From Candidatus Cloacimonadota bacterium (GTDB lineage Bacteria; Cloacimonadota; Cloacimonadia; Cloacimonadales; Cloacimonadaceae): a stretch of DNA of 64,000 nt. Below the pieces are notes generated by a model. It was not told where the DNA came from. It did not search any database and saw only the letters and a list, made by a program, of their open reading frames with translations. Shown here one piece after another: positions 26,955 through 51,167 of this stretch (within the stretch, counting starts at the first letter, position 1; every line of letters begins with the position of its first letter). Both the position numbers and the translations under genes were made by a program. The stretch is taken from contig JAHDQK010000013.1 of assembly GCA_018433885.1 (NCBI GenBank), positions 1 through 64,000 on the forward strand, in the 5' to 3' direction.

Positions 26955-27059
26955 CGGCATAATGAGATTCTACCCCTCTTCTCGAAGCATTCGTCATGCC
27001 GTACTTAAGCAGTCTGGACTGCATGTTCACGGCTTCAGCACTCGATTGCTGAATGGGGG
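26955..27059 (-). repeat. structured element, copy A (possible non-coding RNA or palindromic repeat)
   Basis: A chain of perfect stems: CGGCAT/ATGCCG (26955-26960 with 26996-27001), or alternatively GCCGT/ACGGC (26998-27002 with 27029-27033) enclosing GCAGT-CTGG-ACTGC (27009-27022), then TTCAGCA-CTCGAT-TGCTGAA (27034-27053). Copy B at 50897-51014 matches it in 18 of 22 bases over 26971-26992 (TACCCCT and CGAAGCA blocks). The next hairpin follows 16 bases later in both, and the ATGGGGG block 30 bases after that in both. Strand is set by the downstream gene (nadE), which is inference. Confidence 0.7.
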
Positions 27060-27323
27060 AGAGATGGATAGAAGAACAATGATCCTCCACTGAAGAACTC
27101 TTTTTATACTATAATAGATGCCGGCTGAGGCAGAGTAATTATAGGTAAATGCTTTTATGAAAGTCGCCCTCGAAAATTGAATAACCATATATATAGTAAA
27201 TATTTGGTGCTTGTATTGGAAAATCTGATGTGATATTGGGGTTCGTAGCGATTCTTTTTTGGTGCTACATGCCCATTCCATCCGATATGTGATTATCCTT
27301 GATGACCGCCCCCGGGACATTTC

Positions 27324-27462: not shown

Positions 27463-27491
27463 GCAAAAACATTCACATACAGAACAACGCT

Positions 27492-50835: not shown

Positions 50836-51167
50836 TGTATTTATTTGAAACTTGTTTCACCACCGCTAGGTTTTTTGTCAATCAGAAAAGACACAGTTCA
50901 GCGCATTCATCGGCAAATTGCTTCGTACCCCTTTTACCGAAGCACTCTCCCAGCGCTGAATATGCAGTGCCAACTGCTACCACACCGCACAGGAACTCCT
51001 GAGATAAATGGGGGTCGATGATGAGTAACAAAAGCCTAAACAACATTAGTTTCCATGAGGAGCTCAGAGTTATAGAATAGCCTTGGTAGCCATGAAGATC
51101 AGCTTTCGGCCTGTTAGCCTTATATTTTCTTGCATATTCCTTTGACAAAGAACCTAATGGTTATTTA
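50836..51167. other. non-coding gap with structured element copy B
   Basis: 332 bases between divergent genes. It holds a minus-strand TTGACA (50881-50876) without a clear -10, the nested hairpin element (50897-51014) and the plus-strand Nudix promoter (51142-51169). Short frames on both strands (88 codons minus, 67 codons plus) are not supported by homology I recognise or by ribosome sites. Confidence 0.6.
50897..51014 (-). repeat. structured element, copy B (possible non-coding RNA or palindromic repeat)
   Basis: The outer stem TTCAGCGC (50897-50904) pairs with GCGCTGAA (50953-50960). Inside it TGCTTCG (50919-50925) pairs with CGAAGCA (50938-50944). Then come GCAGT-GCCA-ACTGC (50964-50977) and CAGG-AACT-CCTG (50990-51001). 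Blocks CGGCA (50911), TACCCCT plus CGAAGCA (50926-50947) and ATGGGGG (51008-51014) match copy A at equal spacing. The next hairpin is 16 bases beyond the main block and ATGGGGG 30 bases beyond the hairpin, as in copy A. Confidence 0.7.

Follow-up and report, generated by a model that had tools for sequence, protein, structure and literature searches.

Directly upstream of nadE in the window (the whole stretch of 64,000 nucleotides that was analysed) lies a long imperfect palindrome, element A. A homologous palindrome, element B, lies further along the same stretch. The features are the following:

26962–27068, no meaningful strand (two-fold symmetric): element A, 107 bp, full match to the family model
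26973–26979, no strand: left end motif of element A, CCCCTCT (consensus positions 12–18), most conserved end block
27009–27022, no strand: dyad centre of element A, GCAGT-CTGG-ACTGC (consensus positions 48–61), axis between 27015 and 27016
27021–27053, forward strand: right-arm modules of element A, three 11-bp steps (27021–27031, 27032–27042 and 27043–27053)
27052–27058, no strand: right end motif of element A, AATGGGG (consensus positions 91–97)
50917–51023, no strand: element B, 107 bp, full match to the family model, axis between 50970 and 50971
50964–50977, no strand: dyad centre of element B, GCAGT-GCCA-ACTGC
51007–51013, no strand: right end motif of element B, AATGGGG

Compared without gaps over a 92-bp core, A and B are identical at 54 of 92 positions (59%), against 23.1 ± 4.3 for random window pairs, which confirms the homology proposed in an earlier reading of this DNA (hereafter the sequence-only reading). 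Several of its details were also exact: positions 26971–26992 and 50926–50947 agree in 18 of 22 bases, both GCAGT-NNNN-ACTGC centres exist, and ATGGGG, from 27053 in A and from 51008 in B, lies at the same distance from the centre in the two elements. The several small hairpins that it described were not recovered as such. Set side by side, the copies show one colinear palindrome with its dyad in GCAGT-NNNN-ACTGC, and the stems TTCAGCA/TGCTGAA and CAGG/CCTG, said to be kept, are not conserved across the family. Self-complementary pairs number 25 of 46 in A and likewise in B. Element A scored 79.7 and 42.2 bits on the two strands with a covariance model and 65.6 and 50.6 bits with a model of sequence only; element B scored 78.3 and 39.4 bits with the covariance model.

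The two elements belong to a dispersed family in the source genome of the window (Cloacimonadota; G000). As a first step, a DNA search of this genome with the element gave further partial matches, which were printed side by side. A family model built from seven rows found about 90 places, mostly matched on both strands, as expected since the element is a palindrome, and scanning contiguous stretches directly brought in a few more, for 96 matches in all (one of them counted twice, in the near-identical duplicate pair L095/L102). The sequence-only reading had proposed a search for further copies, whose absence would have spoken against it; A and B do belong to a multi-copy family and proved to be two of about 95 copies, each a single long colinear imperfect palindrome of about 92–107 bp. 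The length is exactly 107 bp in 66 of the 96 matches, and the next longer classes, 118 bp (6 matches) and 129 bp (2 matches), are longer by 11 and 22 bp. An alignment of 62 copies runs over 100 columns with zero gaps, and the 66 ungapped copies have a mean pairwise identity of 57 ± 5%, with no subfamilies except one duplicate pair. The total information is about 92 bits and is densest in the end block AATGGG and at the centre, ACTGC. The right end motif carries 1.6–2.0 bits per base, its last base excepted, while the four central bases of the dyad carry little; the left end motif is CCCCATT in the family consensus versus CCCCTCT in element A. One copy outside the window (C70:101284) is a nearly perfect palindrome of 90 bp.

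The copies are intergenic in 95 of 96 cases, in agreement with the earlier view that they do not code. Among 95 copies, 38 lie between tandem, 20 between divergent and 19 between convergent genes, with 18 at the edges of stretches, so that no orientation rule emerges. The genes adjoining the most perfect palindromes are housekeeping genes. A search for exact element patterns in IMG/VR found none.

We asked whether the symmetry reflects base pairing, as a structured RNA or riboregulator, the first proposal of the sequence-only reading, would predict. Over 66 copies, the arms pair at 54.6% of positions, against 53.9% expected with independent arms. In the 62 gap-free copies, 69.7% of cells are paired versus 69.2 ± 0.5 after shuffling, and the covariation score between the arms, a check that the sequence-only reading had itself suggested, is 0.159 versus 0.156 ± 0.007 (165 of 500 shuffles were as high). 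When the partner column was moved by 1–3 positions, the paired cells fell from 70% to 35–45%. This drop, together with the lack of covariation, indicates that the symmetry is real, but that it is a symmetry of the consensus, composed of two half-sites, and not base pairing. The pattern fits a two-fold symmetric site in double-stranded DNA rather than an RNA gene. Both elements can be folded on paper (−41.5 kcal/mol for A and −40.7 kcal/mol for B, in 151-base stretches), which would suit an RNA; however, the arms are independent, the orientation relative to genes is inconsistent, one in four of the copies whose context is known sits between convergent genes, and an Rfam search of the window at gathering thresholds returned three tRNAs only. 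We thus regard a structured RNA as highly improbable.

The arms are built from modules of one helical-turn length. In G000, the sequence within an arm repeats best at a lag of 11 bp (37%, versus 18–28% at other lags). A DNA similarity search with element A in 40 relatives gave no match outside its own genome; since the families of the relatives are too diverged for such a search, we used a palindrome scan that is blind to sequence. Genomes were counted as carriers from modest stretches of each, and the relatives examined include G003, G006, G008, G013, G014, G018, G020 and L177. The architecture is common to eleven genomes of the phylum, with 11 bp as the best lag in ten of them and a tie between 10 and 11 bp in G013, and the module sequence is particular to each genome. 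The left-arm modules of G003 read AAGCTGATTTC-AAGCTGTTATC-AAGCTGTG, those of G020, G018 and G014 are repeats of CCATTGCTTAC, CTTGATCTGCT and GTCATCAGGGA, respectively, and L177 has AGTTCNAGTGG-like steps. The purine-rich end motif varies least between genomes (AATGGGG, CAAAGGGGA, AAGGAAG and AAAGGGAGG), and in G006 and G003 it lies exactly 11 bp farther out than in G000. At some places in the modules, only the class of base pair, strong or weak, is kept (A/T at positions 8 and 19 counted from the dyad, for instance), as would be expected if a protein contacted one face of the helix and the remainder merely bent. The scan found nothing convincing in about 100 kb each of the order-level genomes G026 and G028, nor in 192 kb of G008, which belongs to the same genus.

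Blocks of 3–4 bases within modules switch to complementary versions (GCTT/CGAA and AGC/TCG, in the G000 alignment and in G006 and G003 sites), as though nothing but strong/weak identity or groove shape were recognised at these places. G018 has two iteron types, of the CTTGATCTGCT and TCACTAGGGAA kinds (L237:15839 versus L233:119 and L236:8135), perhaps two parallel systems. In G020, short CGATACTTGTCATTCCT-like tandem repeats occupy L188:14248–14625, a few hundred bases from an element.

Positions persist between species while the recognised sequence changes. For G000 elements with both neighbouring genes mapped in G006 or G003, a small set, in 5 of 8 testable cases the orthologous gap is occupied by an element of the family proper to that relative, compared with 6 of 131 gaps without a G000 element (Fisher p = 5.7e-5). 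With long gaps only, p is 0.028, or 0.008 if L059, a case misclassified because the gene caller placed the element inside an ORF, is counted as present. The G000 elements without a match usually have an element 2–3 kb away. In L177, from the Cloacimonadota MAG Go_SlDig_bin_399, an element whose modules differ precedes nadE by about 300 bp, and nadE is also the gene that follows element A. Few neighbourhoods are shared between G000 and G020 in gene order. G008 has an element-free gap of 162 bp where G000 and G006 each carry an element; judging from this gap and the 192 kb scanned, G008 appears to lack the elements, which would then not be essential in the genus.

The sites are also evenly spaced along the chromosome. 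On eight contigs of G000, 36 gaps average 16.3 kb and are never shorter than 9.05 kb, with a coefficient of variation (CV) of 0.40. Sites placed at random have a CV of 0.88, and their smallest gap has a median of 0.33 kb; not one of 20,000 simulated sets reached the observed evenness. The same holds for G006, where 17 gaps average 10.7 kb and the shortest is 5.8 kb (CV 0.36; 0 of 20,000 random sets as even), and for G003, where 16 gaps average 12.0 kb and the shortest is 6.2 kb (CV 0.44; p = 4.5e-4), the random sets for the three genomes having CVs of about 0.9 and median minimum gaps of 0.3–0.5 kb. The closed chromosome of G020, a single contig of 2,246,820 bp, has 44 sites with a minimum gap of 10.55 kb, not reached in 20,000 random sets; the spacing is otherwise wide and irregular (CV 0.84). 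The half of this chromosome nearest parS holds 27 of the 44 sites (p = 0.17), and a bias towards origin or terminus is not significant. An artefact of the search tool was considered as a source of the even spacing and rejected, as the direct scan of contiguous stretches gave the same spacing.

The reading that we hold with moderate confidence is that the sites form an array along the whole chromosome, bound by a modular DNA-binding protein that evolves fast and serves to organise or segregate the nucleoid. Each element would be a double-stranded docking site for a dimeric protein assembly, which would contact one face of the helix once per turn and extend outward from the dyad in both directions through the 11-bp modules, ending at the fixed purine-rich motif. 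The roughly 100 sites, about one per 10–20 kb and at least about 9 kb apart, would serve as anchor points that organise, segregate or tether the nucleoid, as Noc, SlmA and MatP sites do, with a different and much larger site. The protein would be modular or polymeric, its specificity changing together with the sites. Protein binding, the nature of the protein and a role in chromosome organisation rather than gene regulation are what we infer from the arrangement of the sites; ordinary gene regulation would fit poorly with sites that are evenly spaced and indifferent to how the genes are oriented. A scan for internal repeats in 2,726 ORFs (about 45% of G000) gave no tandem-repeat DNA-binding protein, only TPR, S1, beta-propeller and similar proteins. 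This result counts against the reading, as do the apparent lack of elements in G008, the less regular spacing and missing origin or terminus bias in G020, the small number of cases in the comparison of positions, and the near-identical copies in G006.

Other explanations account for part of these observations. A palindromic mobile repeat had been the second suggestion of the sequence-only reading, and a non-autonomous palindrome of the MITE or REP type, moved by a transposase with short-range target immunity, would produce a minimum spacing. What stands of it is the dispersed, intergenic, palindromic nature of the copies and the near-identity of some of them in one relative: groups of G006 copies are 85–99% alike over about 130–145 bp, with flanks that drop to background, and the empty orthologous gap in G008 would suit an insertion. 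Such sharp-edged, closely similar copies are rare in G000, where, the duplicate pair aside, the copies are about equally diverged, and ectopic gene conversion would give the same picture; the G006 groups do show that copying or gene conversion of sites can occur as well. Target-site duplications were not seen at the ends, the best direct-repeat enrichment being 36% identity (3-mers), near the 25% background, with no consistent offset. The Y1 (RAYT) transposase PF01797, found in five of seven genomes searched, is absent from G000. These two results and the persistence of positions among species with different consensus sequences argue against a merely mobile element, which we consider unlikely. 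REP/BIME and REPIN sequences with RAYT are likewise dispersed intergenic palindromes in about 100 copies, but REP sequences are short and depend on a Y1 transposase, and neither 11-bp iterons nor even spacing is described for them in the papers found.

The sites could also be strong gyrase sites similar to Mu SGS or BIME-2, with DNA wrapped about a dyad, a composition phased at 10–11 bp and a placement that would let supercoils be relaxed in each domain. The E. coli gyrase motif covers 130 bp with phased G/C variation, and BIME-2 elements are gyrase sites (PMC6379681). Like the elements, Mu SGS and BIME-2 are long and dyad-symmetric with a phasing of about 10–11 bp (PMC6379681). The resemblance extends to the four poorly conserved bases at the dyad, to the module positions that distinguish only G/C from A/T and to the total span of about 140 bp in G006, close to the dyad-centred, phased gyrase motif of about 130 bp (PMC6379681). 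The gyrase motif is degenerate, however, whereas the elements are far more base-specific (about 92 bits) and differ in specificity between genomes, which a conserved enzyme such as gyrase leaves unexplained; we judge this quite improbable. Slightly less probable again is that a global transcription factor uses the elements as operators, or that they act as bidirectional terminators or as insulators where operons meet. The elements do lie between operons, and convergent gaps are over-represented (19 of 77 element gaps versus 19 of 156 long gaps), but their position relative to gene starts is not fixed and a regulon would not predict even spacing. Nor does element A contain an intrinsic terminator (a G+C-rich stem followed by a T run); one is found in the region, at 27487.

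Under the reading as protein docking sites, the closest functional analogues would be the Noc and SlmA sites and, for the arms, the stbDR repeats of plasmid R388 with their 11-bp period. Noc sites (NBS) number about 70 per genome and SlmA sites (SBS) 24–52, so that both, like the elements, are palindromic protein sites found in tens of copies across a chromosome (PMC4726725). NBS are 14 bp long and depleted at the terminus, whereas the elements are evenly spaced iteron palindromes of 92–107 bp or longer, for which the closed chromosome of G020 shows no significant depletion there. Each of seven genomes has exactly one PF02195 (ParB_N) match, and hence no second ParB-family protein that could be a Noc paralogue, and MatP (PF06303) is absent from all seven, with a positive E. 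coli control. The parS/ParB system also uses a palindromic chromosomal segregation site, but a search with the parS consensus gave sites of a different sequence, only one or two in each genome, and none of them coincides with an element. These near-consensus sites (G020:C1:23670, G000:C66:52876, G006:C1:127410, G003:C7:18389 and 18804, and G008:C1:139912) are usable as origin markers in these draft genomes.

In stbDR, the direct repeats are asymmetric and recur every 11 bp (9 bp + 2); a single small protein, StbA, binds them for segregation (PMC3098194). The element arms have the same direct-repeat period, but stbDR is a single plasmid-borne locus flanking a promoter, whereas the elements are inverted about a dyad, have a specific end motif and occur in about 100 chromosomal copies, with no candidate protein. 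ParR/parC of R1 is a further iteron centromere alongside StbA/stbDR. No candidate for a StbA- or ParR-like cognate was found among the ORFs scanned (about 45% of G000).

A more specific and more doubtful form of the docking-site reading, which we offer tentatively, is a dedicated chromosome ruler, in which a fast-evolving multi-module protein would use one module per helical turn on inverted iteron sites selected once per 10–20 kb, the site sequence turning over with the protein while positions persist. In logic, such a protein might resemble CTCF or a TALE. Open-access papers on palindromes in this phylum, or on evenly spaced palindromes, contained no description of the elements. In the same literature, we found no bacterial element in which a long iteron site of dyad symmetry goes together with an even spacing of about 10–20 kb, an exclusion zone, and positions kept across species despite a changing sequence, although an earlier description may exist elsewhere; this agrees with the statement of the sequence-only reading that it recognised no known class. 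If the role is architectural, the sites would encode in the DNA itself a unit length by which a bacterial chromosome is folded or segregated, and would point to naturally occurring DNA-binding modules whose specificity changes rapidly. As the site sequence can be read for each genome, the prediction is directly testable.

Two further observations concern the surroundings of the elements in G000. Many elements lie about 200–800 bp from contig ends (C6:204, C13:317, C62:371, C63:247, C67:276, C77:364 and the ends of C12 and C87), more often than a 16-kb spacing would lead one to expect, and the assembly may break near them. At three loci (L042:15742–16400, L057 and L121; C12:135.8 kb, C14:35.2 kb and C78:53.2 kb), a repeat beginning AAATTAGCCAC adjoins the element just outside the palindrome. 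It is 94% identical over 269 bp in one pair and is possibly a second repeat associated with the element.
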